Translations under genes and position numbers: made by a program
The notes under the pieces: model-generated
The model's database searches: none
What the model saw: only the letters and a program-made list of their open reading frames with translations
What the model was told of the DNA's origin: nothing
Assembly (NCBI GenBank): GCA_017519305.1
Contig: JAFWSN010000001.1
Coordinates: 246,296 to 310,295 of the forward strand
Source of the DNA: Candidatus Saccharimonadota bacterium
Lineage (GTDB): Bacteria; Patescibacteriota; Saccharimonadia; Saccharimonadales; Saccharimonadaceae
Direction: 5' to 3'
Length of the DNA stretch: 64,000 bases
Shown here: positions 1,376 to 59,390 of the stretch, in pieces
How the letters are laid out: each line of letters opens with the position of its first letter
Numbering within the stretch: position 1 is the first letter of the stretch

Positions 1376-1384
1376 ATTATAACA
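1376..1384 (-). promoter_or_regulatory. Leaderless extended -10 promoter of yqeG
   Basis: Minus-strand TGT-TATAAT with 6 nt to the yqeG ATG. It is back-to-back with the nrnA promoter; the two -10 boxes are only 15 bp apart. Confidence 0.7.
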
Positions 1385-1393
1385 CAGCCCATA

Positions 1394-1402
1394 TGGTATA
1401 AT
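1394..1402 (+). promoter_or_regulatory. Leaderless extended -10 promoter of nrnA
   Basis: TGG-TATAAT with 6 nt to the nrnA ATG and no Shine-Dalgarno. It overlaps a CCATATGG palindrome (1390-1396 region). Confidence 0.7.
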
Positions 1403-1408
1403 TTAAGC

Positions 1409-2392
1409 ATGTATAGTGTTTTTTCAGATTTTATTAAAGACAAGCAGTCTATCTGCATCATTCAGGCCGAAAATCCGGACGGCGATTCGCTCGGTTCCGC
1501 AATCGCGCTGGATTATCTTTTGAGAGACAAGGATGTAAGTCTTTATTGCCCGGTAGATATTCCAAAATACCTACACTATTTTGCTGATTGGTCCCGCGTT
1601 ACGAACGAATTTAATTTTAGAGCCGACGGCTACATTATTGTTGATACCGCCGCCGAAATCCTAATTAGCAAATTAATGGAAGATGCCGCAATTAAAAACC
1701 GCCTATTTGCTGCGCCGGTCCTTGTTCTCGATCACCACGAAACCGCCGACGATCTTAGCTTCCCACACGAGAGTATTATCGAAACACTACCAGCTTGCTG
1801 TAGCTTAATTTATCGCATCGCTAAATCTGAAAATATCCCAATCGACAAATCAGCCGCCGAAGCAATCTTCCAAGGCATTTTGTCTGATACTTTGGGCCTC
1901 ACTAGCGCTTCGGTTTCATCGGATACATTCCTAGTTTCGGCCGAACTTACCGACCTTGGCGCCAACATTTCCGAGCTTGAAGAACGCCGTCGTGAATTCA
2001 TGAAAAAATCACCACGCATCTTAGATTACAAAGCCGATTTGATTAAACGCATCGAGTACTCGCTTGATGGCGAGCTTGCCACCGTTCATATTCCATGGGA
2101 CGACATTCGTGAATATTCTGACGAATACAACCCAAACGTCTTGATTCTTGAAGAAATGCGTCTCGTCGAAGGCGTCAAAGTCGCCGTTGCTATTAAGACT
2201 TATCCGGATGGTAAAGTTACTGGCAAAATTCGCACCAGCTCCGACGCGCCAATTGCCGAAAAAATCGCTGGCTACTTTGGTGGCGGCGGCCACCCATTCG
2301 CAGCCGGCTTCCGCACCTACGACACCACTTACGAAGAAGTCGTGCGCGACTTGGTTAAACTTGTACCAGAGTTGGAGACCGCTGATGTTTAA
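1409..2392 (+). CDS. nrnA: DHH/DHHA1 phosphoesterase, NrnA-like oligoribonuclease/pAp phosphatase
   Basis: A 327-aa DHH phosphoesterase. NPDGDSLGSAIAL near residue 22 and IVDTAAE supply the first metal ligands, LDHHETADD is the DHH motif, and GILSDTLGLTS follows. The C-terminal DHHA1 domain ends in GGGGHPFAAGF, the substrate-binding glycine loop. NrnA proteins degrade nanoRNAs and dephosphorylate 3'-phosphoadenosine 5'-phosphate. The start at 1409 is chosen because it lies 6 nt after a -10 box and gives the usual N-terminus; the upstream in-frame ATG at 1373 falls in the promoter. It overlaps the next gene by 8 nt. Confidence 0.88.
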   Translation: MYSVFSDFIKDKQSICIIQAENPDGDSLGSAIALDYLLRDKDVSLYCPVDIPKYLHYFADWSRVTNEFNFRADGYIIVDTAAEILISKLMEDAAIKNRLFAAPVLVLDHHETADDLSFPHESIIETLPACCSLIYRIAKSENIPIDKSAAEAIFQGILSDTLGLTSASVSSDTFLVSAELTDLGANISELEERRREFMKKSPRILDYKADLIKRIEYSLDGELATVHIPWDDIREYSDEYNPNVLILEEMRLVEGVKVAVAIKTYPDGKVTGKIRTSSDAPIAEKIAGYFGGGGHPFAAGFRTYDTTYEEVVRDLVKLVPELETADV

Positions 2393-11322: not shown

Positions 11323-11328
11323 TATAAT
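11323..11328 (+). promoter_or_regulatory. -10 box of the heterodimeric ABC exporter operon
   Basis: TATAAT 9 nt before the ATG, no Shine-Dalgarno; probably leaderless. Confidence 0.55.
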
Positions 11329-11337
11329 TAAGTCTTA

Positions 11338-13092
11338 ATGTTGAGGTTATTCAGATTCCTAAAACCATATATTTGGCAGATTATTATTCTGCTTCTTTCG
11401 ACAGCTCTACAGGTTTATTGCACGTTGCGTTTGCCAGCGCTCATGGCCGACATCATCAACAACGGCATCGTGCCGGGCGACACTAACCACATTTGGCAAG
11501 CCGGGCTTTTGATGCTCGGGCTCGCCGTACTTTCGGCGGTTGGCGCACTCGTTTCTAATTTCTTTGCCGCTCACATTGGCTCAAACTTTGCTAAAGATTT
11601 ACGTCGTGCCGTCTTCAAGAAGGTTATCAGCCTCGATCTCGTTGATACTAAAACTTTTAGCACCGCCTCGCTCATCACTCGTACCACTAATGACATCAAC
11701 CAGGTTCAGCAAGCCACCATCATGATTTTATCGATGCTGGTGCGCGCGCCAATGTTCTGTATTATCGCGCTCATCATGGCCTTCGAAACCGCACCAGATA
11801 TGACTTGGATTATTGCCGTCGCCGCGGGTTCCATCTTGCTTTCCGTTTTCACCATCATGTTACTCGTGGTGCCGAAATTCAAAATCTTCCAAAAATTACT
11901 CGACAAACTCACCCTTCTCACACGCGAAAATCTCACAGGGCTCCGTGTTATCCGTGCTTTCAACAAAGAAAAATTCGAGCAGGACAAATTTGCTAAAGAA
12001 AATAACCGCATGACCAAGTTAATCATTTTTATTGAAAAAATTCTCAACTTGCAAAATCCACTCATCAACATAGTCTTTAACGGCATGACTTTGCTTTGTT
12101 CATGGGTCGGCATCTCGCTACTTCAAAAAGACATCGCCTATCTAGGAAATATGAGCGCTTTCGCCCAATACGTCACGCAAGTGATGATTTCATTCCTCTT
12201 ACTTTCAATTCTTTTCATTATGCTCCCACGCGCCAACGTTTCGGCTGGACGTATCAACGAAGTATTAAAAACCGCACCAAAAATCCATTGGAAGAAAAAT
12301 ACTAGCGGCACACCAAATGAGACGCCATCCGTCGAATTTAAGAACGTTGACTTTGCTTACGAAAAAGCCGAAGAAAAAGTTTTGTCCAATGTTTCATTCC
12401 GCGCTGAAGTTGGCAAGACTACAGCGCTCATCGGTTCAACTGGTTCCGGCAAATCTACTTTAATCAACTTAGTGCCACGTTTCTTTGAAGCCACCGGCGG
12501 CGAGATTTTAATTAATGATTTAAACATCAAAAACTACTCACGCGAAGATTTAATGAAGTTAATTGGCTTCGTACCACAGCGCGGCATGTTATTCTCAGGC
12601 AGCGTCAAGGAAAATATCGCTTTCGGCGCACCAGACGCTTCAATGGAAGACATTAAGACGGCCGCCAAAATCGCCCAGGCCGACGACTTTATCAAAAAGC
12701 TACCAAAAGACTACAACTATCACATTGCACAAGGTGGCACCAATGTTTCGGGCGGCCAGAAACAACGCCTCTCAATCGCCCGCGCCATTTGTAAAAAACC
12801 AAGCATCTTCGTATTTGATGATTCTTTCTCGGCACTTGATATGAAGACTGATGCCAAGCTTCGCCAGGCTTTGAAACCGCTAATTAAGGGCGCTGTAACT
12901 TTGATTGTAGCGCAGCGCGTTAGTACCATCAAAGACGCCGATCAAATCATTGTACTTGATAAAGGCAAAGTCGTTGGCAAAGGGAACCATCGCGAACTTC
13001 TAAAATCTTGTGAAGTTTATCAAGAAATCGTTAAGTCACAAATTTCTGAAGCAGAATATAAGAAAGAATTGGAGGGAGCTCGCCATGCCTAA
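11338..13092 (+). CDS. ABC exporter half-transporter, subunit 1 (degenerate ATPase site)
   Basis: 584 aa: six-helix transmembrane domain (about 1-310), then an ATPase domain. Walker A is GSTGSGKST, the signature VSGGQKQR is canonical, but the Walker B end reads FVFDDS, with Asp in place of the catalytic Glu, and the H-loop is VAQRVSTI, with Gln for His. This is the pattern of the degenerate half of heterodimeric exporters such as TM287/288 or BmrCD. Overlaps its partner gene by 8 nt. Exports an unknown substrate, possibly a drug or lipid. Confidence 0.9.
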   Translation: MLRLFRFLKPYIWQIIILLLSTALQVYCTLRLPALMADIINNGIVPGDTNHIWQAGLLMLGLAVLSAVGALVSNFFAAHIGSNFAKDLRRAVFKKVISLDLVDTKTFSTASLITRTTNDINQVQQATIMILSMLVRAPMFCIIALIMAFETAPDMTWIIAVAAGSILLSVFTIMLLVVPKFKIFQKLLDKLTLLTRENLTGLRVIRAFNKEKFEQDKFAKENNRMTKLIIFIEKILNLQNPLINIVFNGMTLLCSWVGISLLQKDIAYLGNMSAFAQYVTQVMISFLLLSILFIMLPRANVSAGRINEVLKTAPKIHWKKNTSGTPNETPSVEFKNVDFAYEKAEEKVLSNVSFRAEVGKTTALIGSTGSGKSTLINLVPRFFEATGGEILINDLNIKNYSREDLMKLIGFVPQRGMLFSGSVKENIAFGAPDASMEDIKTAAKIAQADDFIKKLPKDYNYHIAQGGTNVSGGQKQRLSIARAICKKPSIFVFDDSFSALDMKTDAKLRQALKPLIKGAVTLIVAQRVSTIKDADQIIVLDKGKVVGKGNHRELLKSCEVYQEIVKSQISEAEYKKELEGARHA

Positions 13093-14871: not shown

Positions 14872-14880
14872 TGCTATAAT
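14872..14880 (+). promoter_or_regulatory. Leaderless extended -10 promoter of tmk
   Basis: TGC-TATAAT with 6 nt to the ATG; no Shine-Dalgarno and no clear -35 box. Confidence 0.7.
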
Positions 14881-14886
14881 AAAATC

Positions 14887-15501
14887 ATGTATATAGTGAT
14901 TGAAGGGCAGGATGCCACTGGCAAATCAACACAAGTTGAATTACTTGCCGAATACCTACGCAAAAAAACCGGTAAAAAAGTTATTACCATGCACGAACCG
15001 GACGGCGATCTCGACTCCGCTCACGAACTTCGCAAAATCATCAAAGATAAGAATTACAACCTCGAACCACTCACACACGTGTTATTGTTTACTGCCGCCC
15101 GCAAAGAGCTTTGGCGAAAACTTGCTGAGCCAGTTCTAAAAGAAGGCGGTTTTGTGATTTCTGCTCGCAACTGGTGGTCCACACTCGCTTATCAGGGCTA
15201 CGGCCAAGGAATTTCGCGCAGTAAAATTATTCGTATTACTAAAGAAGCCATGCCTGATCAATACGTCAATCCAGATAAAAGCGTAATTCTAACCCTCGAG
15301 GACAGCATCCGTCTTTCTCGCCAAACCGGCCGCGACGACAATTCCAAAAACGACACCTTCGAATCCAAGTCAATGGATTTTCAGCACAAAGTTGACCACG
15401 CCTATCTTAATATTGCCAAGGATTTCAATATCCCAACTTTTGATGCTAGCCCATCCATTGAAGAAATTCATGCCGAACTCATAAAACTCTTCGAACTCTA
15501 A
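14887..15501 (+). CDS. tmk: Thymidylate kinase, divergent
   Basis: Phosphorylates dTMP to dTDP. 204 aa. P-loop EGQDATGKST at the N-terminus, HEPDG after strand 2, and LAYQG after the region that normally holds the DR(Y/F/W) motif; here that reads ISARNWWSTLAYQG, so the Asp is replaced by Ala. The lid has GRDDNSKND. The fold and order fit thymidylate kinase; a related deoxynucleoside kinase cannot be excluded. ung starts 1 nt after the stop, so the two are an operon. Confidence 0.82.
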   Translation: MYIVIEGQDATGKSTQVELLAEYLRKKTGKKVITMHEPDGDLDSAHELRKIIKDKNYNLEPLTHVLLFTAARKELWRKLAEPVLKEGGFVISARNWWSTLAYQGYGQGISRSKIIRITKEAMPDQYVNPDKSVILTLEDSIRLSRQTGRDDNSKNDTFESKSMDFQHKVDHAYLNIAKDFNIPTFDASPSIEEIHAELIKLFEL

Positions 15502-18579: not shown

Positions 18580-18588
18580 TGTTATAAT
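18580..18588 (+). promoter_or_regulatory. Leaderless extended -10 promoter of typA
   Basis: TGT-TATAAT with 7 nt to the ATG; no Shine-Dalgarno. Confidence 0.7.
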
Positions 18589-18595
18589 CGCTGTC

Positions 18596-20413
18596 ATGAC
18601 TTTAGCAGAAACTCTAATTAGAAATGTTGCGATTATCGCCCACGTCGACCACGGCAAGACGACTCTTGTTGATGGCCTCCTCAAACAATCCCACACTTTC
18701 CGCGATAATCAGGCCGAGATGTCTCAGACGCTCATTATGGATTCTATGGATCAGGAGCACGAACGCGGCATCACTATTACCGCCAAACAAACCGCTGTTT
18801 TTTATGATGGTTATAAAATCAACATCATCGATACCCCAGGCCACGCCGATTTCTCTGGCGAAGTCGAACGTACTCTAAACATGGCAGACGGTGTCATCTT
18901 GATCGTCGACGCTCAAGAAGGCCCAATGCCACAGACTAAATTCGTGCTCAAAAAAGCTCTTGAGCTCAAGCTCAAACCAGTCGTCGTAATCAACAAAATT
19001 GATAAACCAGCTGCTCGTATCGAAGAGGTTAAAGATGAAATATCCGATCTCTTTCTCGAGCTTGCCACCGACGAATCCCAGCTTAACTACCCAATTTACT
19101 ACGCTATTGCTCGCGACGGTAAAGCTGGCAAAACCACCGATCTAGACGACGATTTGCACGTAATCTTTGAATCAATCATCAATGATATTCCAGCACCAAA
19201 AGTCGACGAAGACGAGTCTAAAGGTGCCCAACTTCTTGTTGCTGCGCTTGCCGCCGATAATTATCTCGGCAAATACTGCATCGGCAAAATCTTCCGCGGC
19301 TCCCTTAAAAAAGGCCAAGCTGTCAAAATTTTGCAAAATGGCACCAGTAAAAACGCCAAAATCGACCGCCTTTTCACCTATAAAGGCCTTGGTAAAGAGG
19401 AAACTGAATCCGCTATCGCCGGCGACATCGTCGCTCTTACCGGTGTTAGCGAAGCCAATATCGGCGACACTATCGCCAGTGGCGACAATCCAGAAGCTTT
19501 GCCGACTATTGAACTCGAACCACCAACCCTTTCTATCTACATCGGCCCAAATACTTCACCACTCAAAGGTAAAGAGGGCGAATTCACTACCTCTCGTCAA
19601 ATTGCTGAACGCCTCGAAAAAGAGCTCGAAACCAACATCGCTCTTAAAATCGAACCAGATGGCCTTGGTTACAAAGTTTCCGGCCGCGGGGAATTACATC
19701 TCTCTGTTCTAATCGAAACTATGCGCCGCGAAGGTTACGAACTTGAAGCCGGCCGTCCAGAGGTAGTCTACAAAGATATCGACGGTGTTAAATGCGAGCC
19801 CATCGAAGATTTAACCATCGAAGTTGAGCCAGAATTCGTCGGTGCCGTATCACAGGAACTCGGTATCAGAAAAGCTGAACTCAAAACCCAAGATCTAACT
19901 TCTACCGGCGCCACTCGCTTTACCTATGAAATTTCTACTTCCGCCCTTATTGGTCTTCGTAATATGTTGATGACCGCCACCAAGGGTACCGTCCTTATGT
20001 CTAGCGTTGCTAACGGCTACCGTCCAGTAGATTCTAAGTACAAACCAGAGCGTAACGGCGCTCTCGTCGCCTTCGAATCTGGCGTTTCTACCTCTTATGC
20101 CCTTGATGCTGCCCAAGCCCGCGGTGTTCTCTATATCCCTCCACAAGTTCCGGTCTACCAAGGTATGATTGTTGGTCTTTCCAACAAAAAAGATGATCTC
20201 GATATTAACGTCTGCAAAGAGAAGCAGCTCACTAATATGCGCACTCACGCCTCTGACGGCGCTATCCAGCTCACCCCTTATACTCAACTTTCTCTTGAAC
20301 AATGCCTCGATTTCTTGCTCGACGACGAGCTTCTTGAAGTTACCCCTAAATCCTTGCGCCTCAGAAAACGTCAACTCGACCCAATCAAGAGAAAACGCGA
20401 AAACCGCGCCTAA
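18596..20413 (+). CDS. typA: Translational GTPase TypA/BipA
   Basis: 605-aa ribosome-associated GTPase. G1 AHVDHGKTT, G2 in RGITITAKQ, G3 DTPGHADF, and G4 NKID are all present in the first 130 residues, followed by domain II, the EF-G-like III and V domains (GRGELHLSVLIETMRREGYEL) and the BipA-specific C-terminal domain ending KRKRENRA. Acts in 50S assembly and stress. Single gene with own promoter and terminator. Confidence 0.96.
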   Translation: MTLAETLIRNVAIIAHVDHGKTTLVDGLLKQSHTFRDNQAEMSQTLIMDSMDQEHERGITITAKQTAVFYDGYKINIIDTPGHADFSGEVERTLNMADGVILIVDAQEGPMPQTKFVLKKALELKLKPVVVINKIDKPAARIEEVKDEISDLFLELATDESQLNYPIYYAIARDGKAGKTTDLDDDLHVIFESIINDIPAPKVDEDESKGAQLLVAALAADNYLGKYCIGKIFRGSLKKGQAVKILQNGTSKNAKIDRLFTYKGLGKEETESAIAGDIVALTGVSEANIGDTIASGDNPEALPTIELEPPTLSIYIGPNTSPLKGKEGEFTTSRQIAERLEKELETNIALKIEPDGLGYKVSGRGELHLSVLIETMRREGYELEAGRPEVVYKDIDGVKCEPIEDLTIEVEPEFVGAVSQELGIRKAELKTQDLTSTGATRFTYEISTSALIGLRNMLMTATKGTVLMSSVANGYRPVDSKYKPERNGALVAFESGVSTSYALDAAQARGVLYIPPQVPVYQGMIVGLSNKKDDLDINVCKEKQLTNMRTHASDGAIQLTPYTQLSLEQCLDFLLDDELLEVTPKSLRLRKRQLDPIKRKRENRA

Positions 20414-20730: not shown

Positions 20731-20739
20731 TGCTATAAT
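20731..20739 (+). promoter_or_regulatory. Leaderless extended -10 promoter of tatD
   Basis: TGC-TATAAT, 6 nt before the ATG. Confidence 0.7.
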
Positions 20740-20745
20740 GAAAAT

Positions 20746-21480: not shown

Positions 21481-21489
21481 TGCTAAAAT
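21481..21489 (+). promoter_or_regulatory. Leaderless -10 promoter of the 142-aa membrane protein gene
   Basis: TGC-TAAAAT with 6 nt to the ATG at 21496. Confidence 0.6.
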
Positions 21490-21495
21490 GAAAAT

Positions 21496-23487: not shown

Positions 23488-23496
23488 TGTTATAAT
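23488..23496 (+). promoter_or_regulatory. Leaderless extended -10 promoter of the cysteine desulfurase gene
   Basis: TGT-TATAAT, 7 nt to the ATG. Confidence 0.7.
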
Positions 23497-23503
23497 ATAT
23501 GAC

Positions 23504-26808: not shown

Positions 26809-26814
26809 ACCCAT

Positions 26815-26823
26815 ATTCTACCA
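26815..26823 (-). promoter_or_regulatory. Leaderless -10 promoter of the GH3 gene
   Basis: Minus-strand TGG-TAGAAT, 6 nt to the ATG at 26808. Shares the palindrome ACCATATATGGT (26820-26831) with the alaS promoter. Confidence 0.6.
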
Positions 26824-37981: not shown

Positions 37982-37990
37982 TGTTATAAT
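37982..37990 (+). promoter_or_regulatory. Leaderless extended -10 promoter of obg
   Basis: TGT-TATAAT, 6 nt to the ATG, directly after the preceding terminator's T-run. Confidence 0.7.
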
Positions 37991-37996
37991 ATTGAT

Positions 37997-39541: not shown

Positions 39542-39550
39542 TGGTATAAT
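39542..39550 (+). promoter_or_regulatory. Leaderless extended -10 promoter of glyS
   Basis: TGG-TATAAT, 7 nt to the ATG. Confidence 0.7.
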
Positions 39551-39557
39551 AATTAAC

Positions 39558-40919
39558 ATGAACAACTTAGACGACATTGTAAGCTTATGTAAACGCCGCG
39601 GCTTTATTTTTCCAGGTTCCGACGTCTACGGCGGCATGGCCGGTACGTGGGACTTTGGCCCGCTCGGCGTCACTCTCAAAAACAACATTGTAAATACCTG
39701 GTGGAATTATTGGGTCGACCAGCGTGATGATATGTTTGGTATCGACGCCGCTATTTTAATGAATCCTCGCACCTGGGTCGCTTCCGGTCACACTTCTACT
39801 TTTGCCGATCCATTGGTCGAATGTAAAGAGTGTCACTCTCGTTTCCGTGCCGACAAGCTTGTCGACGGCTATTCCGAAAGCATCACCACCGAAGAATTTC
39901 TAGCCCAAAACCCAGTCTGTCCAGTCTGTGGCAAAACCAACTGGAGCAGCATCCGTAAATTCAACATGATGTTCACTACCCACGTAGGCGCTGTGACGCC
40001 AGAAGATGCCGAAGGCGACGAAGCCGCCAAAGAACTCTTGAACCGTAGCACCACCTATCTCCGCCCAGAAACTGCTCAGGGTATCTTCACCAACTATAAA
40101 AATGTCGTCGACACCATTTATCCAAACCTTCCATTTGGCCTTTGCCAACAGGGTAAATCTTTCCGCAACGAAATCTCTCCACGCGACTTCATCTTGCGCG
40201 ACCGCGAATGTTCGCAGCTCGAAATTGAGTATTTTGTGCACCCAGATACTTGGTCAGAAAACTTCGACAAAATCCTCGAAGAATACCGTGGCTTCTTAAA
40301 AGACAAAATGGGTCTTCCAACCGAAAAAATCCACGAACTCGAAGTTCCAGCCGAAGACCGCGCCCACTATTCAAAGCGCACCGTCGATATTATGTTCGAT
40401 TATCCAAACGGCGAGGAAGAGCTCATGGGCATCGCCTATCGCACAGATTTTGATTTGCAAAACATCGCTCGCGAATCCGGCAAAAACATGGATTACCGCG
40501 ATAAGAACACTGGCGAGACTTTCGTTCCGCACGTCATCGAACCATCCATTGGTGTCGAACGTCTATTCCTGGCCGTGCTTAGCACTGCCTACACCGAAGA
40601 CGAGATTAATGGTGAAAAACGTATCGTTTTGAGACTCCCAGAAAATCTCGCACCGTACAAATTCTGCGTTTCACCACTACTTAAAAACAAACCGGAACTC
40701 GTCGAGAAAGCTAAAACTGTCTACGAAAAACTCAAAGCCAAATATACTTTTGTAACTTGGGATGATTCCGGCAACATTGGTAAACGCTATCGCAAGCAAG
40801 ACGAAATCGGTACGCCAAAATGCGTCGTCATCGACTTCGATACCCTAGAAGATGGCACTGTCACCGTCCGCGACCGCGACACTGCCGAGCAAGTTCGCGT
40901 CAAGATTGAAGAATTATAG
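39558..40919 (+). CDS. glyS: Glycyl-tRNA synthetase, dimeric (eukaryote/Gram-positive) type
   Basis: 453-aa class II synthetase charging tRNA-Gly. GFIFPGSDVYGGMAGTWDFGPLG opens motif 1; two Cys pairs CKECHSRF and CPVCGKTNW form the zinc knuckle; RPETAQGIF and FRNEISPRDFILRDRE are motif 2; EPSIGVERLF is motif 3; the anticodon domain ends at the stop. The start at 39558 gives the family N-terminus; an in-frame ATG at 39465 would lie inside the upstream terminator transcript and is rejected. SD-led ABC genes follow at 12 nt. Confidence 0.96.
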   Translation: MNNLDDIVSLCKRRGFIFPGSDVYGGMAGTWDFGPLGVTLKNNIVNTWWNYWVDQRDDMFGIDAAILMNPRTWVASGHTSTFADPLVECKECHSRFRADKLVDGYSESITTEEFLAQNPVCPVCGKTNWSSIRKFNMMFTTHVGAVTPEDAEGDEAAKELLNRSTTYLRPETAQGIFTNYKNVVDTIYPNLPFGLCQQGKSFRNEISPRDFILRDRECSQLEIEYFVHPDTWSENFDKILEEYRGFLKDKMGLPTEKIHELEVPAEDRAHYSKRTVDIMFDYPNGEEELMGIAYRTDFDLQNIARESGKNMDYRDKNTGETFVPHVIEPSIGVERLFLAVLSTAYTEDEINGEKRIVLRLPENLAPYKFCVSPLLKNKPELVEKAKTVYEKLKAKYTFVTWDDSGNIGKRYRKQDEIGTPKCVVIDFDTLEDGTVTVRDRDTAEQVRVKIEEL

Positions 40920-44796: not shown

Positions 44797-44802
44797 TATA
44801 AT
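44797..44802 (+). promoter_or_regulatory. -10 box of the ABC exporter gene
   Basis: TATAAT 10 nt before the ATG at 44813 in an AT-rich stretch; no Shine-Dalgarno. Confidence 0.45.
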
Positions 44803-44812
44803 AATATATTTT

Positions 44813-46603
44813 ATGAAGAAAAAAGATAACATGACATCCCGCGTCCTTCATTATTATTGGCGCGAAGTAAAAAAGTACAAATGGCTGTCACTCGGCGTAT
44901 TTATTTTGACGCCAGTCGTTATCTTTATCCGTAACGTCCTTGGTGCGTTCATCTTTGCCGATATTATCGATAAAGTTTCTGCCGGCATTACTGAAGAACG
45001 AGTCTTCGCTGAGCTCTTACCGGAAGCGCTTATTTACTTAGCGCTTGCGCTTACCAACAGCTTATTATTCGAAAAGCTTAGGCTTTACTGTTGTTGGAAA
45101 ATGGAGCTTCTCGCCATGCGAGATCTCGACACCCTCGCCTTCACTACCGTTTGTGAACAATCCATGCAATTCCACAACGACCGTTTCTCTGGCTCGCTAG
45201 TCTCACAAACCAACAAGCTTACTAGTTCGTTTGAGCGCTTTATGGATGTAATCATTTGGGATCTCGTACCAATCCTTACTTATCTCATCTGTGTTACGGT
45301 AATTCTCTGGACACGCGCCCAGGGCTTCGCCATTGCCATCGTCGCCGTAGTCGCAATCTACACATTCTTTACTGCAATCTCATTTAAGAAAATCGCCGAC
45401 TACAGTGAACAAGAAGCTGCCGCTACCGCTAAGAAAACTGGGCAACTTTCCGATTCAGTTTCCAATATTACTTCAGTTAAATCCTATGCCAAAGAAAAAT
45501 ACGAGCAACAACGCTATAGCCGTTTCCAGAAAAATTGGTTAAATACTTCCTTTAAGATGATGCGCGCCACCATCAAACGCGATTTGCTCTTTAGTACCAT
45601 CATCATGAGTCTTACGGCCGCGCTTTTATTCTTCCTCATCACTGGCACGATTTGGTTTGGTCTCACTGTCGCTACATTGGTTCTTATCGTTAGCTACTCA
45701 CAAGGTATCCTCAGTGATTTGTGGAGTATTACTCACATCTTCAAGAACATCAACCGTAGCCTTGGTGATGCTCGCGACATGGTTCGCATTCTCGACATGA
45801 AAGACGACGTCGTTGATATGCCGGGCGCCAAAAATCTCGTCATCGCAAAGAGCACTATTTCATTCAATAACATTACCTTCAAACACCACGAAGCAAAAGA
45901 AAAAATCTTCGAGAACTTCTCGCTCGACATTAAACCGGGTGAAAGAATCGGCCTTGTTGGTATCTCTGGCTCCGGTAAAACCACTTTGACCAAACTCTTG
46001 CTGCGTTTCGCAGACGTTGATTCTGGTGAGATTTTAATCGACGGCCAAGACGTAAAAAAAGTCACCCAAGCTTCACTCAGGGATAGTATTGCCTATGTTC
46101 CACAAGAAACCGCCTTATTCCATCGCACCATCGCCGAAAATATTGCCTATTCTAATCCGAACGCCAAGAGGGAAGAAGTCACTCGCGCCGCCAAACTCGC
46201 CAACGTCGATGTCTTCATTAAGAATCTTCCAGACGGCTATGAAACTTTAGTTGGTGAACGCGGCATTAAGCTTTCTGGTGGCCAACGCCAACGTATCGCA
46301 ATTGCTCGTGCTATTTTGAAAAACGCCCCAATCCTTGTCTTAGACGAAGCAACCTCCGCACTAGATTCCGAATCCGAGGCTCTCATTCAAGACGCCTTGA
46401 ATAACCTCATGAAAAATCGCACATCTATTGTTATTGCTCACCGTCTTTCTACGGTCGCCAGCCTCGATCGTATCGTTGTACTCGAAGATGGTAAAATCGT
46501 CGAACAAGGCACCCACAACGAACTACTTAAAAAACATGGTAGCTACTTCCGCCTTTGGTCCCGTCAGTCTGGCGCCTTTATCGACAAGCCAGAAAACGAC
46601 TAA
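44813..46603 (+). CDS. ABC exporter, homodimer-type (membrane plus ATPase domain)
   Basis: 596 aa. Six-helix membrane domain (about 20-320), then ATPase with Walker A GISGSGKTT, signature LSGGQRQR, Walker B ILVLDEATSALD with Glu, and H-loop IAHRLSTV. All catalytic residues are intact, unlike the 11338 subunit. The start could be ATG 44813 or the ATG six codons later; an earlier in-frame ATG at 44765 lies before the -10 box. Convergent 4-nt overlap with rarA. Confidence 0.9.
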   Translation: MKKKDNMTSRVLHYYWREVKKYKWLSLGVFILTPVVIFIRNVLGAFIFADIIDKVSAGITEERVFAELLPEALIYLALALTNSLLFEKLRLYCCWKMELLAMRDLDTLAFTTVCEQSMQFHNDRFSGSLVSQTNKLTSSFERFMDVIIWDLVPILTYLICVTVILWTRAQGFAIAIVAVVAIYTFFTAISFKKIADYSEQEAAATAKKTGQLSDSVSNITSVKSYAKEKYEQQRYSRFQKNWLNTSFKMMRATIKRDLLFSTIIMSLTAALLFFLITGTIWFGLTVATLVLIVSYSQGILSDLWSITHIFKNINRSLGDARDMVRILDMKDDVVDMPGAKNLVIAKSTISFNNITFKHHEAKEKIFENFSLDIKPGERIGLVGISGSGKTTLTKLLLRFADVDSGEILIDGQDVKKVTQASLRDSIAYVPQETALFHRTIAENIAYSNPNAKREEVTRAAKLANVDVFIKNLPDGYETLVGERGIKLSGGQRQRIAIARAILKNAPILVLDEATSALDSESEALIQDALNNLMKNRTSIVIAHRLSTVASLDRIVVLEDGKIVEQGTHNELLKKHGSYFRLWSRQSGAFIDKPEND

Positions 46604-47820
46604 TCTTTCATCGTCGATTTAAAAATCTTCTCGTTCTTTATCTGGTCTGGTAAGTAATTTTTATCAAGATGAAAGCCAGACTCCCATTTTTGGCCCTTAC
46701 CAAAACCGAGGTCGGCCATAAGTTTGGTCGGGGCATTACGTAACCAAATCGGCACCGGCTCACCCATCGTTTTGCGTGCCAAATCTTGTGCTTTATACCA
46801 AGCGTCCGTCGTATCGCGATTTTTCTTAGATTTTGCGAGCGCCACCACGGTGTGCGCCAAAATCAAACCCGATTCCGGCATACCAACACGCTCCACCGCC
46901 TGGAAACAAGCTGTCGCAAGGCTAAGTGCACCATTGCCAGCCAGCCCAATATCTTCCGAAGCAAAAATTACCATACGCCTAGCAATAAACTTTGGGTCTT
47001 CGCCAGCTTCCACCATACGCGCAAGATAATAAAGCGCCGCATCCACATCCGAACCGCGCATCGATTTAATAAATGCCGAAATCGTATCGTAATGATTGTC
47101 GCCTTTTTTATCGTAACCTGGCAGTTTGCGACCGGCTGCTTCTTTAACGACGTCACGATCAATCTTGTCGGAAAGAGAAAGAGCAAGCTCCAGATCGCCA
47201 AGCGCCGAACGCGCATCGCCACCCGAAAGTTCCGCCAAATAATCTAACGCGTCTTCGGTAATTTTGCGACCAGCCGTTTTGGTCATTTTCTTAACAATCT
47301 TCAGCTTCTCACTTTTAACCGCACGAGTCAAGACTTCAAGAATCGCAGCCTTAGATAATGGCGACACTAACACCACGCGCGAGCGAGAAAGTAACGGCGA
47401 AATAACTTCAAAGGATGGGTTCTCGGTTGTAGCGCCAATCAAAGTAATTAGCCCAGACTCCACATGCGGCAAAAACGCATCTTGCTGCGCCTTATTAAAA
47501 CGGTGAATTTCATCCACGAAAAGTACGGTGCGAATTTTCAAATTCCAGTTGGTTTTAGCGCGTTGCACTACTTCTTCGATATCTTTTTTGCCGGAAGTTA
47601 CAGCAGAAATTTCAACAAAGTCAGCCTCAAACTCATGCGCCAAGATTCGTGCTAGGGTAGTTTTGCCAGTACCCGGAGGACCCCAAAAAATCAAATTCAC
47701 CGGCTCTTTAAGGCGCACAATTTCCGTCAAAATTTTGCCTTCGCCAATAATTTTGTCTTGCCCAACCACTTCGTCCAACTTTTTTGGACGCATTCTCTCC
47801 GCTAGTGGTACTCTGTTCAT
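46600..47820 (-). CDS. rarA: Replication-associated recombination protein RarA (MgsA)
   Basis: 406-aa clamp-loader-like AAA+ ATPase acting at stalled forks. Walker A GPPGTGKTT, Walker B LFVDEIHRFNKAQQDAFLP, sensor 1 GATTENPSFEV, and the C-terminal tetramerisation part with EDPKFIARRMVIFASEDIGLA. The start ATG 47820 lies 6 nt after TATAAT, so the mRNA is probably leaderless; the in-frame ATG at 47835 overlaps the -10. Confidence 0.95.
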   Translation of the reverse strand: MNRVPLAERMRPKKLDEVVGQDKIIGEGKILTEIVRLKEPVNLIFWGPPGTGKTTLARILAHEFEADFVEISAVTSGKKDIEEVVQRAKTNWNLKIRTVLFVDEIHRFNKAQQDAFLPHVESGLITLIGATTENPSFEVISPLLSRSRVVLVSPLSKAAILEVLTRAVKSEKLKIVKKMTKTAGRKITEDALDYLAELSGGDARSALGDLELALSLSDKIDRDVVKEAAGRKLPGYDKKGDNHYDTISAFIKSMRGSDVDAALYYLARMVEAGEDPKFIARRMVIFASEDIGLAGNGALSLATACFQAVERVGMPESGLILAHTVVALAKSKKNRDTTDAWYKAQDLARKTMGEPVPIWLRNAPTKLMADLGFGKGQKWESGFHLDKNYLPDQIKNEKIFKSTMKD

Positions 47821-47826
47821 ACCCCG

Positions 47827-47832
47827 ATTATA
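47827..47832 (-). promoter_or_regulatory. Leaderless -10 box of rarA
   Basis: Minus-strand TATAAT, 6 nt to the ATG. Confidence 0.6.
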
Positions 47833-48330: not shown

Positions 48331-48357
48331 AAAAATCCCCCAAATGGGGGATTTTTT
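48331..48357 (+). terminator. Intrinsic terminator of the 134-aa gene
   Basis: AAAAATCCCCC, loop AAAT, GGGGGATTTTTT; the trmD promoter starts at its end. Confidence 0.85.
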
Positions 48358-48365
48358 GTTATAAT
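48357..48365 (+). promoter_or_regulatory. Leaderless extended -10 promoter of trmD
   Basis: TGT-TATAAT, 9 nt to the ATG. Confidence 0.6.
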
Positions 48366-48374
48366 ATAATATAT

Positions 48375-49043
48375 ATGGCAAAAATCAAATTCACCATTAT
48401 CACGCTTTTTAAAGAAGCTCTCGAGCCTTATCTTAATACTTCCATGATGTGGAAGGCCCAAGATAAAGGTTTAGCTGAGTTTGATTTTGTTAACTTACGC
48501 GATTTTGGCCTTGGCCCACACAAATCCGTCGACGACACACCTTATGGCGGTGGTGATGGCATGCTACTACGCTGCGAACCGGTCTTTGACGCTATCGAAT
48601 CCGTTAAAGAAAAAGATCCATCCGCTAAAGTTATTCTCCCAACACCAGTCGGTACAATCTGGAATCAAGAAATGGCTCGCGAATTTGCCGAAGTCAAAGA
48701 CGACGAAACTAAGCATTTTATTATTCTTTGCCCACATTACGAAGGCTATGACGAACGCATTCTTTCAATCGTTGACTTTAAAGTTTCACTTGGCAAATTC
48801 GTCTTAACCGGCGGGGAATTACCGGCTCTCACGATAATCGATTCGGTCGTTCGTCTTATTCCGGGCGTACTCGGTGGCGAAACCTCAGCCGAAATCGAAT
48901 CTTTTTCGGATGGCGACAATCTAGAATACCCACAATACACCAAGCCTTATGATTTTCGCGGTATGACCGTGCCAGACGTTTTACTCTCCGGCAATCATGG
49001 CGAAGTCGACAAATGGCGCGCCGAGCACTCGAAGCGCGCTTAA
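48375..49043 (+). CDS. trmD: tRNA (guanine-37-N1)-methyltransferase TrmD
   Basis: Methylates G37 of tRNAs next to the anticodon, preventing frameshifts. 222 aa. DDTPYGGGDGM binds tRNA, LCPHYEGYDERI is the SAM-knot motif (usual CGHYEG has Pro for Gly here), and VLTGGELPALTIIDSVVRLIPGVLG closes the knot. The C-terminal domain is a little short. Not beside rpsP/rimM/rplS as in many bacteria. Confidence 0.95.
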   Translation: MAKIKFTIITLFKEALEPYLNTSMMWKAQDKGLAEFDFVNLRDFGLGPHKSVDDTPYGGGDGMLLRCEPVFDAIESVKEKDPSAKVILPTPVGTIWNQEMAREFAEVKDDETKHFIILCPHYEGYDERILSIVDFKVSLGKFVLTGGELPALTIIDSVVRLIPGVLGGETSAEIESFSDGDNLEYPQYTKPYDFRGMTVPDVLLSGNHGEVDKWRAEHSKRA

Positions 49044-49050
49044 GTAATTT

Positions 49051-49059
49051 TGCTATAAT
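49051..49059 (+). promoter_or_regulatory. Leaderless extended -10 promoter of recG
   Basis: TGC-TATAAT, 6 nt to the ATG. Confidence 0.7.
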
Positions 49060-49065
49060 AGTCTT

Positions 49066-51081
49066 ATGAATTTAGAGGAGTCAGTCGAGAGTCTAAAGGG
49101 TATCGGCCCAAAGACTGCTGAGATTTTAAAAAAAGCCGGCATCAAAACCGTGCGCGACTTTTTTTATAACCTGCCAAAAGACTATGAAAACTTCTCTGCG
49201 CCAACCACTATTGCCGCTATGGAGCCAGGCAAAGTCGTCATTAAAGGCCGTGTCACGGCAGCCGTCTCGCACCGCGCCAGGTTCCGCAAACTCACAGTCA
49301 CCGAAGGAGTTATTCGTGACGATACTGGATTCGTTAAAGCTGTTTGGTTTAATCAAGCTTATCGTGTCAACCAATTTAAGCCCGATAAAGAATATTATTT
49401 TACCGGCAGTTTTGAGCTTCGAAACGGACGCTACTGTCTAATGTCGCCATCCGCCGTTGAAGTCGACGAGATCGAACGCTCGTCCGGGCTCGCACCGATT
49501 TATGTCGCCCACGGCAAAGTTAAATCTACCGATTTCAAACGCCTAATCAATAACTCACGTGATAGATTCGCCGAAATCCCGGACTTCTTACCAACCGTAC
49601 CGGCAGGCAAACGTAGGGAATCTTTGTTTAAAGTGCATTTTCCAGAATCTACTAAATCTGTTACGGAAGCCCGCGAATATTTAGCCTACGAAGAACTCTT
49701 CGAATTGATTTTAGCCGCTAAGCTCAACCGCTCCGAAAACGACAAACTAGAATCTTTGCAGCTTCCATACCACAACGACAAGATTAATCAATTCGTTAAA
49801 GAACTTCCATTTACGCTAACTGCCGCTCAGAAAAAATCTGCCTGGGAAATTTTCCAAGACATGGAAAAATCTACGCCAATGAACAGATTGCTCCAGGGCG
49901 ACGTTGGCTCCGGTAAAACCATGGTCGCCGCTATGGCCGCTTACGAAGCCGTGCTCGGCGGCGCACAAGTTGCTTTGCTTGCGCCAACTGCTATTTTAGC
50001 CACTCAGCATTTCGAAAAATTGTCCAAACAACTCGGTATTTACGGCGTGAAAGTCGCCCTACTTACTGGCGCAACCAAACAAAAAGACAAGTTAAAAACC
50101 GCCATCAAAGCTGGCGAAATTAATTTCGTAATCGGTACGCACGCACTCCTCACCGACGATACCGAATTTAAAAATCTTGGCCTCGTCATTATCGATGAGC
50201 AGCATCGTTTTGGCGTAGAGCAAAGGCATAAATTATTACTCAAATCACCAAGCGAACTAGCGCCACATCTTCTTGCGATGACCGCCACACCAATTCCGAG
50301 ATCGCTTCAACTTACTGTCTTTGGCGATCTTGACGTTTCAATTTTAAATGAATTGCCAAAAGGCCGCCAGCCAATCACGACCAAAATTCTCGCCGAAACC
50401 AGCACCAGGGAATCACTGTATCCAAAAATTCGCGAGACTATTACCGCCGGCCAACAAGTTTATTGGATTTGCAAGGCCATTGATGATAATCCATCCTCCG
50501 AAGCCACTTCAGTTAAATCACGTACCGAAAAACTAAAAAAAGTTTTTCCAGAATACAAAATTGAATTCCTGCACGGCCGCATGAAGCCAGCCGAAAAAGA
50601 TGTCGTCATGGAACGCTTTGCAAATGGCAAAATCCAAATCCTAGTCTCTACCACCGTGGTGGAAGTTGGTGTCGACGTGCCAAATTCTACCTTAATGGTC
50701 ATCGAAAATGCCGAGAATTACGGCCTCGCCCAATTACATCAATTACGCGGGCGCGTTGGCCGCGGCAGCGTGGCATCATTCTGTTATCTACTTACTTCCG
50801 GCGACAATCAACCGTCCAGGCGTTTGAGAGAACTTGAAAAATCATCAGATGGTTTCTATCTCGCCGAAGTCGATCTTAAACTCCGCGGCCCAGGTGAAAT
50901 TTATGGTGCTTTGCAGCACGGCGCGCTTGATCTTCGCATTGCCACTTTTGGCGACACTAAACTCATCAAAAAAGCTCGCGACGACATCGAGGTATTCTTG
51001 AAAAATCCAGAAAATATGTTAAAATATAAAGAGCTTATGTCTGACATTAAGCGCTATCAACAATTAACGACATTAAACTAA
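49066..51081 (+). CDS. recG: ATP-dependent DNA helicase RecG
   Basis: 671-aa branch-migrating helicase for stalled forks. N-terminal helix-hairpin-helix and OB wedge (VESLKGIGPKTAEILKKAG, then VVIKGRVTAAV), motif I LLQGDVGSGKTMVA, DEQH motif II (IIDEQHRFGVEQR), motif III MTATPIPRS, and motif VI QLRGRVGRG. The C-terminal TRG region is present. rsmD follows 1 nt later. Confidence 0.97.
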   Translation: MNLEESVESLKGIGPKTAEILKKAGIKTVRDFFYNLPKDYENFSAPTTIAAMEPGKVVIKGRVTAAVSHRARFRKLTVTEGVIRDDTGFVKAVWFNQAYRVNQFKPDKEYYFTGSFELRNGRYCLMSPSAVEVDEIERSSGLAPIYVAHGKVKSTDFKRLINNSRDRFAEIPDFLPTVPAGKRRESLFKVHFPESTKSVTEAREYLAYEELFELILAAKLNRSENDKLESLQLPYHNDKINQFVKELPFTLTAAQKKSAWEIFQDMEKSTPMNRLLQGDVGSGKTMVAAMAAYEAVLGGAQVALLAPTAILATQHFEKLSKQLGIYGVKVALLTGATKQKDKLKTAIKAGEINFVIGTHALLTDDTEFKNLGLVIIDEQHRFGVEQRHKLLLKSPSELAPHLLAMTATPIPRSLQLTVFGDLDVSILNELPKGRQPITTKILAETSTRESLYPKIRETITAGQQVYWICKAIDDNPSSEATSVKSRTEKLKKVFPEYKIEFLHGRMKPAEKDVVMERFANGKIQILVSTTVVEVGVDVPNSTLMVIENAENYGLAQLHQLRGRVGRGSVASFCYLLTSGDNQPSRRLRELEKSSDGFYLAEVDLKLRGPGEIYGALQHGALDLRIATFGDTKLIKKARDDIEVFLKNPENMLKYKELMSDIKRYQQLTTLN

Positions 51082-56502: not shown

Positions 56503-56511
56503 TGTTATAAT
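56503..56511 (+). promoter_or_regulatory. Leaderless extended -10 promoter of the FAD oxidase gene
   Basis: TGT-TATAAT, 9 nt to the ATG. Confidence 0.6.
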
Positions 56512-56520
56512 TTATAAAGC

Positions 56521-58101
56521 ATGAGCAAAATTACGAAATATCTCAACCAACTTATTACTGGTAATGCTTTTGATTCTTCTGAAATTCTTGAAGCCTATTC
56601 TACCGACCAGTCTGCTCTCAAAATCAATCCGCGTCTCGTAGTTTTGCCAGAATCAACTGCCGACATCCAAAAATTAATGCAATTCTTCAACCAACTTTCC
56701 GAAAAAAACGTACGCATTCCAGTAGCAGTTCGCGGTTCTGGTTTAGACGAAATGGGCGCAGACCTCTCAACAGGTGCTGTCATTTCAATGGAAAAACTCA
56801 ACCGCCTCGAAGAAATCGACAAACGTGAACGTTTGGTTCGCGTACAGGCTGGCATCACGCTCAAAGAATTGAACACGGCTCTGCTCGTTAGTGGCATGAC
56901 TATTCCTATCAAGGCTAGCCAAAACGAGACCATCGGCAGCCTTATTGCTAACTGCCCGATCGATGATTACTCGGCTAAATATGGCGGCATTAAAAAATAT
57001 GTTGAACGTATCGAAGTGGTACTCGCCAATGGCGAACGCATTCAAACCGGTCGTGCCGGCACACGCCTACTTAAAAAAGCGGGCGACACTTTGGAAAGTC
57101 GCATTTACAAGGACCTTAACGAACTAGTTGCCGAAAATCCAAATATTTTACAGCAAATTTCTGAAAAACTATCCAACCAAGCTGGTTATCCAAACATTGT
57201 CTACGCTATCAAAAAGGGCACCATCGATTTAATGCCGCTATTCTTTGGCTCCGAAGGTACTCTCGGCATTATTTCCGAAGTCATTTTGCACGCCGAACTT
57301 TTGCCACCAAAACCAGTCCGTTTGGTTGCAACCTTTAGCAATCTCAAAGCAACACTCAACTTCCTCTCCGGCGTTACGCCACTCGACCCGCTCGAGTTAA
57401 ACATCTTTGATTTACGTATCCTCAAAATCGCCGAGGAACGCGGCAAGAGTCTGTCCAAAATCACTCACAAATTACAATCCGGTTACGTGGTATATGCCAG
57501 CTTCAATGATGGCGGCATCAAAATCAACAAGAAAATTCGCCGCGCACTCAAGCACATCCCGTCAACCGCATACTCTCTCATCGAAGACGAAAAAACCGCT
57601 GGCATCATTGATGAATTCGAAAATTCCATCGACAACTATCTCAACGCGTCCAACAACGGCGAGCGTGTGCCACTACTTTCGAATTTCCTCATTCCGTCTG
57701 GAAATCTTGTACCATTTTTAAAAGACCTTGAAACCCTGGAGCAAAAAATCCGCCTCGACTTACCGCTCTTTGGCTCCTTTATCACAGGGAATTACAGTAT
57801 TCGCCCATCACTTAGAATTAGCGAACCAAATCTCGAACAGCGCGTCGCGATTCTTTTAAAAACCGGTGACATCCTGATCAATACTCACGGCGGCGCAATC
57901 GCCGGCGGTTATCCAGAAGGCCGCGTGAAAGCTATCATTACTAATGAAACTATGGATAAAGACGAGAAAGCTTTCTACAAACGCATTAAGGAAATCTTCG
58001 ATCCAAACAACATCCTCACGCCAGACGCCAAACTCGGCACCGACAAGAATTTCACTTTGAAACACCTAAGAACTACAAAAACACCGAAGATTATGTTATA
58101 A
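56521..58101 (+). CDS. FAD-linked oxidase (GlcD/lactate-dehydrogenase-like)
   Basis: 526 aa, cytosolic. PCMH-type FAD domain in the first 230 residues: PRLVVLPESTADIQ, VAVRGSGLDEMGADLSTGAV (the FAD pyrophosphate loop), VRVQAGITLKELNTAL, ETIGSLIA, and FFGSEGTLGIISEV. The C-terminal half follows GlcD/D-lactate dehydrogenases and ends FDPNNILTPDAKL. No iron-sulfur partner gene is adjacent. Substrate unknown; D-lactate or another 2-hydroxy acid is a guess. The stop TAA lies inside the -10 box of tig. Confidence 0.85.
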   Translation: MSKITKYLNQLITGNAFDSSEILEAYSTDQSALKINPRLVVLPESTADIQKLMQFFNQLSEKNVRIPVAVRGSGLDEMGADLSTGAVISMEKLNRLEEIDKRERLVRVQAGITLKELNTALLVSGMTIPIKASQNETIGSLIANCPIDDYSAKYGGIKKYVERIEVVLANGERIQTGRAGTRLLKKAGDTLESRIYKDLNELVAENPNILQQISEKLSNQAGYPNIVYAIKKGTIDLMPLFFGSEGTLGIISEVILHAELLPPKPVRLVATFSNLKATLNFLSGVTPLDPLELNIFDLRILKIAEERGKSLSKITHKLQSGYVVYASFNDGGIKINKKIRRALKHIPSTAYSLIEDEKTAGIIDEFENSIDNYLNASNNGERVPLLSNFLIPSGNLVPFLKDLETLEQKIRLDLPLFGSFITGNYSIRPSLRISEPNLEQRVAILLKTGDILINTHGGAIAGGYPEGRVKAIITNETMDKDEKAFYKRIKEIFDPNNILTPDAKLGTDKNFTLKHLRTTKTPKIML

Positions 58102-58102
58102 T
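58094..58102 (+). promoter_or_regulatory. Leaderless extended -10 promoter of tig
   Basis: TGT-TATAAT, 7 nt to the ATG. The TATAAT contains the stop codon of the upstream gene. Confidence 0.7.
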
Positions 58103-58109
58103 CTTCCCT

Positions 58110-59390
58110 ATGAAAACCACTGTTAAGAAATTATCCGACACCAAAGTCGAGATTAAAGTTACTCTTGATGCTAAAGATTTAGCTCCAGCTCGCGAGAAAG
58201 CTATTGAAAAACTCGCTAAAGAAGTCAAAGTTGAAGGTTTCCGCAAAGGCAAAGTCCCAGCCGATATTGCTGAGAAGTTTATTCCGGAAAACGATTTGAG
58301 CGCCGAGACAATTGACCTTGCCATCCGCCTTACCGTCATTCAAGCCTTCACCGACAACAAACAATCATTAATCGCCATGCCACAAGTTGACGTTCTTAAA
58401 TACGTACCAGGCGAAATGGCCGAGTACACCGCTACCGCCGAAGTTTTGCCAGAAGTCAAACTTTGCGATTACAAAAATCTCAAAGTTAAAATGGAAAAAG
58501 CTACCGTTAGCGCCAAAGATGTCAACGACGTACTCGAAAACATCGCCAAATCTTACGCCGACAAGAAAGCTGTTAAGCGCGCGGCTAAGGAAGGCGATGA
58601 AGTCATCATTGATTTCGTTGGCAAAAAGGACGGCGAAGCCTTTAAGGGCGGCACCGCCAAAGATTATCGTTTGCCGCTTGGCTCACATACCTTTATTCCT
58701 GGCTTCGAAGAGGGAATTATTGGCCACGAACCTGGCGACAAATTTGATCTTAAGCTCACCTTCCCGAAAGATTACGGCATGAAAGATCTCGCTGGCGCCA
58801 AAACCGTCTTCGAGGTACTTTTGAAACAAGTTAACGAAGTCGAAACCGCCAAACTAGACGACGAACTCGCAAAAAAATGCGGTCCATTCAAGACTTTGGA
58901 CGAGCTTAAGAAAGACATCGAGAAAAATCTCGCTGCTCAAAACGAATATCGTGTAACCGAAAAATACAAAGACGACTTGATCAAAGCTGTTGTTGAGAAA
59001 TCTAAAATCCCAACTCCAGAAATTCTTATTAAAGATCAGATGCGCCTAATCGAAGATGACATCACCAGAAACGCCGCTTCTCACGGACTTTCCTTCGATG
59101 ATTATCTCGTCGAAACCGGCAAAACCCGCGAAGACTGGGAGAAAGAAGCTTCCGCTATCGCCGCAGAACGCGTCAAAGCTTCTCTTGCTCTTCAAATCAT
59201 CGCTCGCGACAACAAAATCACCGTCAAAGACGAATTGGTTGCCGCCAAAATCGCCGAACTTCGTGACGTTTATAAGAATTCAAAAGAAGCTATCGAAAGC
59301 CTCAAAGATCCAAACGTTGCTGCCGACATTAGAAATCGCTTAATCATTGAAGAAACCATCAATTTCTTGGTCAAAGCTAACAAAAAATAG
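58110..59390 (+). CDS. tig: Trigger factor (ribosome-bound chaperone, PPIase)
   Basis: 426 aa. Ribosome-binding GFRKGKVPADI at about 46-56, a FKBP-type PPIase domain (GDEVIIDFVGKKDGEAFKGGTAKDYRLPLGSHTFIPGFEEGIIGH) and the C-terminal helical cradle. All three domains are present; length is typical. Binds L23 at the exit tunnel and folds nascent chains. Confidence 0.96.
   Translation: MKTTVKKLSDTKVEIKVTLDAKDLAPAREKAIEKLAKEVKVEGFRKGKVPADIAEKFIPENDLSAETIDLAIRLTVIQAFTDNKQSLIAMPQVDVLKYVPGEMAEYTATAEVLPEVKLCDYKNLKVKMEKATVSAKDVNDVLENIAKSYADKKAVKRAAKEGDEVIIDFVGKKDGEAFKGGTAKDYRLPLGSHTFIPGFEEGIIGHEPGDKFDLKLTFPKDYGMKDLAGAKTVFEVLLKQVNEVETAKLDDELAKKCGPFKTLDELKKDIEKNLAAQNEYRVTEKYKDDLIKAVVEKSKIPTPEILIKDQMRLIEDDITRNAASHGLSFDDYLVETGKTREDWEKEASAIAAERVKASLALQIIARDNKITVKDELVAAKIAELRDVYKNSKEAIESLKDPNVAADIRNRLIIEETINFLVKANKK

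Follow-up and report, generated by a model that had tools for sequence, protein, structure and literature searches.

Do genes whose promoter-like boxes stand almost against the start codon make messenger RNAs (mRNAs) that begin with the AUG itself? The question is raised by the window analysed here, a stretch of 64,000 nucleotides (nt) that is part of a Saccharibacteria (TM7) genome near Candidatus Nanosyncoccus (786 kb, 11 contigs, 97% complete). Saccharibacteria are tiny and host-dependent, and Patescibacteria are a large, mostly uncultivated group known chiefly through genome sequence. Upstream of the long open reading frames (ORFs) of the window, the sequence TGNTATAAT ends 6-7 nt ahead of many ATGs; we use the term layout for a -10 box ending at this distance from an ATG. 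The best explanation is, with high probability, a leaderless mRNA transcribed from an extended -10 promoter placed on the start codon; in about a quarter of the genes, transcription seems to begin exactly on the first base of the coding sequence.

The layout can be assessed without any choice of start codon, by counting the ATGs that follow TATAAT at a distance k and, among them, those opening an ORF of at least 100 codons. In the window, k = 6 gave 8 ATGs (7 of them opening such ORFs) and k = 7 gave 6 (5), while the other distances up to 44 gave 0-5 ATGs and 0-3 ORFs. The 200 kb taken from elsewhere in the same genome, which with the window make up a 264-kb sample, yielded 31 ATGs and 26 ORFs at k = 6 and 11 and 7 at k = 7; at these two distances GTG appeared 0 times and TTG twice, which we read as ATG-only use. 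At 6-7 nt the whole sample held 56 ATGs, whereas ten first-order Markov simulations gave 3-10, and 45 of the 56 open ORFs of at least 100 codons. A distance peak at 6-7 nt was the check named beforehand by an earlier, sequence-only reading of the window that had proposed leaderless mRNAs, and the peak held in this sample, so the proposal was not refuted and gains support. The same distances stand out in 80 related loci, where k = 6 gave 229 ATGs and 180 ORFs, k = 7 gave 172 and 120, and k = 8 gave 83 and 36, with 16-67 ATGs and 1-35 ORFs at the other distances from 0 to 44 (next highest, 45 and 35 at k = 9 and 52 and 33 at k = 30); orthologues repeat among these loci, and the counts are hence not independent. 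The loci are the 80 relatives used of 177 found for the typA locus, are labelled Saccharibacteria (one is Candidatus Nanosyncoccus alces), and have best segments with 82-95% identity.

For the gene-level counts, a box had to keep A2 and T6 of the hexamer and agree with TATAAT at 5 or more of the 6 positions, or at 4 together with a TGN extension, and a Shine-Dalgarno match of 5 bases or more was called strong. A mechanical caller returned 238 ORFs of at least 90 codons from the 264 kb, not all of which will be genes, and internal in-frame ATGs supplied the chance rates (18/1244 for the layout, 12/1244 for the Shine-Dalgarno). The layout was present in 61 of the 238 ORFs (26%), with 6.7 expected, and a strong Shine-Dalgarno in 95; both signals occurred in three of the 61, the strong Shine-Dalgarno lying at one of the candidate starts. 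Divergent ORFs had the layout in 27 of 58 cases, co-directional ORFs in 34 of 164 and ORFs at the edges of the stretches in 0 of 16. In 150 kb of Escherichia coli K-12 the same caller found it in 0 of 147 ORFs, which is a weak control because just 1.1 matches were expected by chance. The box-to-ATG layout in this genome is thus confirmed as real.

Judged by its sequence and position, the box is a promoter. TGN precedes it in 49 of the 61 layout ORFs, although under the box rule TGN could stand in for one mismatch, and TRTG does so in 28, the extension of the box being TRTGN. No enrichment of a -35 element was seen at a spacer of 15-19, either in the TGN group (n = 49; mean match of 3.08/6 versus 2.92 at a control distance) or in the group without TGN (n = 12; 3.17/6 versus 3.08). 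The box also lies 8-27 nt upstream of 32 of 67 tRNA genes (9/14 in the same genome, 20/45 in named relatives and 3/8 in other relatives), with about 0.014 expected per tRNA, and 19-69 nt upstream in 7 of 15 divergent Shine-Dalgarno genes. None of the 57 co-directional ORFs overlapping the gene upstream had the layout when starts were chosen by signal, a choice that favours such a split; with the most upstream start taken for all, it was present in 2 of 62 overlapping ORFs versus 32 of 102 non-overlapping ones. Region 3.0 of the sigma factor reads the TG of extended -10 promoters. The genome has three Sigma70_r4 matches. One is RpoD, in which VHMVE occupies the place of region 3.0 and region 4 is ordinary (regions recognised by eye), and another is below the cut-off. 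The remaining match lies in a 343-amino-acid (aa) ORF (L117 1435-2466) that is not a full sigma factor and, by eye, is downstream of a topoisomerase-like ORF.

Initiators usually pair a pyrimidine with a following A. Among the 45 exact cases, a C or T precedes the ATG in 31 of 33 with a gap of 6 and in 10 of 12 with a gap of 7, which is what would be expected if the RNA starts at the A of AUG. A pyrimidine is found at this position in 26 of 58 strong Shine-Dalgarno genes and in 3158 of 8026 of all ATGs; the excess of 41/45 over 26/58 has a binomial probability of about 8e-11, and the related loci give 161/180 for gap 6 and 109/120 for gap 7. According to the available text of PMC12825309, RNA synthesis starts optimally some 7 bp beyond the -10, which with a gap of 6 places the RNA start at the A of the ATG. 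We can therefore propose that an extended -10 promoter of the sigma-70 type (TRTGNTATAAT, with no discernible -35) would put the RNA start on this A or about one base off, and an RNA 5' end at the A of AUG is likely from the position of the promoter. An mRNA starting there would begin with AUG, having neither leader nor Shine-Dalgarno, and the 70S ribosome, or the 30S subunit with initiator tRNA, would presumably start on the 5'-terminal AUG. The arrangement would serve about a quarter of the ORFs, those with their own promoter, beside ordinary Shine-Dalgarno genes.

The layout also occurs on both strands of head-to-head genes. In the 264 kb there are seven divergent pairs of this kind, their starts 14-67 bases apart; three are in the window (39 bases between yqeG and the nrnA-like gene, 35 between GH3 and alaS, and 47 between the histidine kinase-like gene and the 613-aa ORF). 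The closest pair, a murC-like gene and tsaE (G000:C10:15162-15181, locus L085), meets in CATGCTATAATTTTATCATG, which includes both start codons and two extended -10 hexamers overlapping by two bases (AT), and in which the complement of each start's CA forms the TG of the other promoter; this predicts RNA starts separated by 15 bp. In its general form, CATGNTANAATTNTANCATG, the unit is present in 88 of 394 genomes of the family, 69 of the 88 being in the window's genus, with 0 for the reversed-pattern control and about 0.0004 per genome expected from base composition. We inspected the 30 sites obtained as loci. ORFs of at least 80 codons run both ways from 25 of them, some continuing off the end of the locus, and two more have, in one case, a complete 65-codon ORF and, in the other, an ORF that the contig end truncates after 36 codons. 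At the other three (L128, L143 and L150, around 1501-1520), a tRNA-Val (CAC) lies on one side and a release factor ORF opposite, identified as prfA, release factor 1, by a family scan of one copy. The sites cluster into 18 pair types, or 16 once the three tRNA sites are counted as one, among them ruvC/ruvA, tdk/ung and tpiA/HAD hydrolase. From these sequences, promoter and start codon would probably be fused in this clade into a single element of about 18 bp. Where genes lie head to head, two of these elements would in some cases merge into a near-palindrome of 20 bp, CATGNTANAATTNTANCATG; it would be a complete unit for two-way expression, lacking a 5' untranslated region on either side, and would have arisen at many unrelated pairs (16 distinct of 30 sites).

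Several observations weigh against the leaderless reading. All nine typA relatives with a gap of 6 nt have a purine before the ATG, which leaves room there for initiation one base further upstream, and a short leader would be expected for the window genes whose box is at 9-10 nt. Eleven of the 56 exact matches open ORFs of fewer than 100 codons, and two of the 27 divergent layout ORFs would overlap their neighbour by 52 and 101 bases and are probably false for that reason. Among tmk relatives with a usable start, 6 of 42 have the box and 26 of 42 have a Shine-Dalgarno only. Finally, IF3 is present, as are four S1 domains in one frame whose best matches are to ribosomal protein S1, although below curated cut-offs; with both factors in place there is no sign of a specialised ribosome. 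The first two points could mean that the box is a promoter from which RNA synthesis begins 1-3 nt upstream of the AUG. This variant takes a minor share of the best explanation's probability, and we consider it unlikely, given the pyrimidine followed by A in nearly all exact cases at either gap. In any event, there is little functional difference between a tiny leader and none.

The other alternatives depart further from a leaderless mRNA. Minor but real boxes, with most transcripts coming from further upstream and being Shine-Dalgarno-led or products of read-through, would accommodate the 18 layout ORFs that lie 0-29 nt past a co-directional gene, where read-through is possible; this is very improbable, as just three of the 61 layout ORFs also have a strong Shine-Dalgarno and the seven close divergent pairs leave little or no noncoding room for a further promoter and leader. 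The fixed distance from the start codon would also suit an AT-rich signal for translation within a longer 5' leader, akin to the non-canonical ribosome-binding sites of Bacteroidetes. We rejected this reading, which we rate extremely improbable, on operon position and tRNAs: ORFs that overlap a co-directional gene upstream need translating too but hardly ever have the box, the box stands before tRNAs, in the three two-way sites above one box region faces both tRNA-Val and a release factor gene, and its TRTGN extension fits an extended -10. The mechanical ORF calls raise the question of whether the starts are misplaced, the ATGs being internal or spurious, and in GH3 the best family match covers the ORF only from residue 88 onwards, which makes the family no test of that start. 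Misplacement is nevertheless scarcely credible, as family matches begin at residue 1 in obg, alaS and tmk, 2 in recG and 5 in glyS, those of typA and tig begin at 8 and 11 with the profile at 1, and most exact matches open long ORFs, as counted above.

How stable is the layout among relatives? At typA, a search for boxes with 5 of 6 matches or better, for which no chance rate was computed, found one in 71 of the 80 loci (gap 6 in 9, gap 7 in 47, gap 8 in 11 and gap 9 in 4) and none in 9; by eye, the remaining upstream sequence differs, and where the start codon is displaced by 3-12 nt the box is displaced with it. For other genes we counted boxes at 5-10 nt among the relatives with a usable start; a box was present in 54/56 for nifS, 45/45 for alaS, 15/17 for the ftsA-like gene, 2/2 for GH3, 44/77 for tatD and 28/50 for the 142-aa ORF; yqeG and nrnA had no relatives in reach for this count. 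The gene starting at 11338, with the box at 9 nt here, has it in 21/40 relatives, and ORF 15503, which begins one base after tmk and has no box here, in 38/44. Several genes that are Shine-Dalgarno-led here have a Shine-Dalgarno only in relatives (8595, 10/10; 10833, 1/1; 13085, 28/40; 21951, 25/26; 16796, 24/44), others are divided (16152, 29/46 with 15 having the box; 30608, 6/11 with 5), and two are rarely so led in relatives (24627, 1/52 with 11 having the box; 29950, 1/14). This gene-by-gene mixture shows that genes change class over time.

The breadth of the motif was evaluated by counting exact TGNTATAAT-N6/7-ATG in 286 genomes, with N13/14 in the same genomes as the comparison, which was added since the reversed-pattern control alone was judged weak and which is one comparison spacing rather than a full distance curve. 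The N6/7 and N13/14 counts were 96 and 9 in the genome holding the window, 129 and 11 and 115 and 7 in two congeners, and in total 354 and 44 in twelve family genomes, 63 and 17 in seven order genomes and 35 and 2 in three class genomes. The 261 genomes of other classes totalled 2661 and 660, with N6/7 higher in 230, equal in 17 and lower in 14. Nanosyncoccus alces had 119 exact N6/7 matches. In small samples, the layout was found in 17/77 ORFs of the congeners (3.0 by chance), 16/59 (0.9) and 9/61 (1.2) of two family genomes, 2/12 (0.0) of an order genome and 4/33 (0.9) of a class genome. One order-level genome with 16 exact matches had the layout in 13 of 62 sampled ORFs (0.5 expected) with weaker boxes, and a pyrimidine before the ATG in 10 of the 13; counting a single exact motif thus understates lineages of this kind. 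In the genomes compared, the layout is broad, and the exact motif is sharpest and commonest in the window's genus and weaker across Patescibacteria.

Within the window, 17 genes have a -10 ending 6-7 nt before the ATG, 12 with an exact TATAAT and 16 with the TGN extension, and four more have an exact TATAAT at 9-10 nt, giving the 21 listed in the table; three weaker matches (starts 31126, 51185 and 60585) were left out. The sequence-only reading had counted 22 genes, against these 21 under one rule; all the genes it named have the layout, and the starts it preferred for GH3, the kinase and rarA are the ATGs that fit the box distance. Its strict rule for the lineage stands in so far as the layout is frequent, but it is limited to the 61 of 238 ORFs, with Shine-Dalgarno-led genes at least as common, and the tie to particular (housekeeping) genes was not borne out, as tmk has the layout here and in few of its relatives.

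Table. Genes of the window with a -10 box close to the ATG. Span covers box to start codon; the gap is in nt; on the minus strand the ATG column gives the position of the A.
Gene	Span	Strand	Box	Gap	ATG	Remark
yqeG (YqeG-family HAD phosphatase)	1367..1384	-	TGTTATAAT	6	1369	hexamer 1376-1381
nrnA-like	1394..1411	+	TGGTATAAT	6	1409	under the family's cut-off; in place of ORF start 1373
ABC transporter	11323..11340	+	TATAAT	9	11338	near-leaderless, less certain
tmk	14872..14889	+	TGCTATAAT	6	14887	
typA	18580..18598	+	TGTTATAAT	7	18596	
tatD-like	20731..20748	+	TGCTATAAT	6	20746	
142-aa ORF	21481..21498	+	TGCTAAAAT	6	21496	
nifS-like	23488..23506	+	TGTTATAAT	7	23504	
GH3 (beta-N-acetylhexosaminidase-like)	26806..26823	-	TGGTAGAAT	6	26808	
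alaS	26828..26846	+	TGGTATAAT	7	26844	
ftsA-like	28721..28738	+	TGTTATACT	6	28736	
histidine kinase-like	32539..32557	-	TGTTAAAAT	7	32541	
613-aa ORF	32574..32591	+	TGATATATT	6	32589	no NCBIfam match at 1e-5
obg	37982..37999	+	TGTTATAAT	6	37997	
glyS	39542..39560	+	TGGTATAAT	7	39558	in place of ORF start 39465
ABC transporter	44797..44815	+	TATAAT	10	44813	least certain
rarA-like	47818..47832	-	TATAAT	6	47820	no TGN
trmD	48357..48377	+	TGTTATAAT	9	48375	
recG	49051..49068	+	TGCTATAAT	6	49066	
GlcD-like oxidase	56503..56523	+	TGTTATAAT	9	56521	
tig	58094..58112	+	TGTTATAAT	7	58110	

The ATG of tig lies 8 bases past the upstream gene, so that its predicted promoter overlaps the end of that gene. 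At 51630-51763 of the window, a tRNA-Leu without the TGNTATAAT box is preceded by a repeated GCGAACGAAGTGAGC-type sequence that continues into the tRNA itself. All sixteen 4-kb intervals of positions 1-64000 show a negative GC skew on the plus strand (-0.07 to -0.17).

As for the ribosome, nothing unusual was found in the factors checked (IF3 and the S1-like protein); IF1, IF2, S2, formyltransferase and YchF were not searched for. A 16S search meant for an anti-Shine-Dalgarno check gave no match in the genome holding the window or in any of the 20 genus genomes (own included), several of them 97-100% complete, although the same search matched 9 of 14 control genomes, so that the absence may reflect assembly, masking or method.

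If leaderless initiation is indeed this common, gene finders leaning on Shine-Dalgarno sites may misplace some starts in Patescibacteria, and the promoter-plus-start of 18-20 bp could be used in reporter and marker cassettes for these organisms. Their reduced ribosomes would also offer a natural system for leaderless and Shine-Dalgarno initiation in one cell, and the 20-bp unit would test the minimum size of a two-gene control region. We found no report of leaderless transcription in Patescibacteria or Saccharibacteria among the open-licence papers listed in full-text searches, although the GeneMarkS-2 paper, which models leaderless genomes, may include members of the phylum. In the accessible portions of PMC12641178, leaderless mRNA is mentioned only in connection with YchF; in those of PMC6851277, PMC7441243, PMC10434106 and PMC10523443, the term occurs only in reference lists, and in those of PMC12369343 and PMC10849945, Shine-Dalgarno is used in other contexts. 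Leaderless genes are a known kind, and their use in this phylum is without an earlier report found in the open literature.

Sigma-70 extended -10 promoters have TGN before the -10 and a weak or absent -35. Unlike such promoters at large, those predicted here are very widely used and locked to the start codon. A close parallel in layout is with the TA-led leaderless genes, in which a TANNNT box about 10-12 bp before the start was read as a promoter and which make up as much as 46% of Deinococcus genes (Zheng et al. 2011, PMC3160421, as far as its text was available). Both have a -10-like box about 10-12 bp upstream of the start, above chance, and starts without a Shine-Dalgarno (a strong match being rare here, as counted above), whereas the boxes described here are near-consensus extended -10 elements with a tight gap of 6-7 nt and AUG only; the group table of that paper, in the form shown, names no Saccharibacteria or Patescibacteria and has an unspecified 'Other Bacteria' row. 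Mycobacterium (PMC3898074) and Deinococcus (PMC9031893), according to the available parts of these papers, likewise combine Shine-Dalgarno genes with many others whose AUG lies at the 5' end or close to it. The evidence there includes mapped transcripts, while the layout described here is known from sequence alone, and Mycobacterium smegmatis uses GUG well (PMC9031893), while GTG and TTG show no enrichment at 6-7 nt here. Last, the predicted 20-bp unit would resemble the bidirectional (Warman-type) promoters of E. coli and Salmonella, in which, from the text available, one short near-symmetric -10 region serves both strands with start points 7-25 bp apart (PMC12825309, PMC10268837). The commonest separation in those promoters is 18 bp, with -7T and -11A reciprocally paired and other separations allowed, versus the 15 bp predicted for the 20-bp unit, whose hexamers overlap by 2 bases. 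In the 20-bp unit, moreover, the predicted start points would be the start codons themselves, and each start's CA would give the other promoter its TG.

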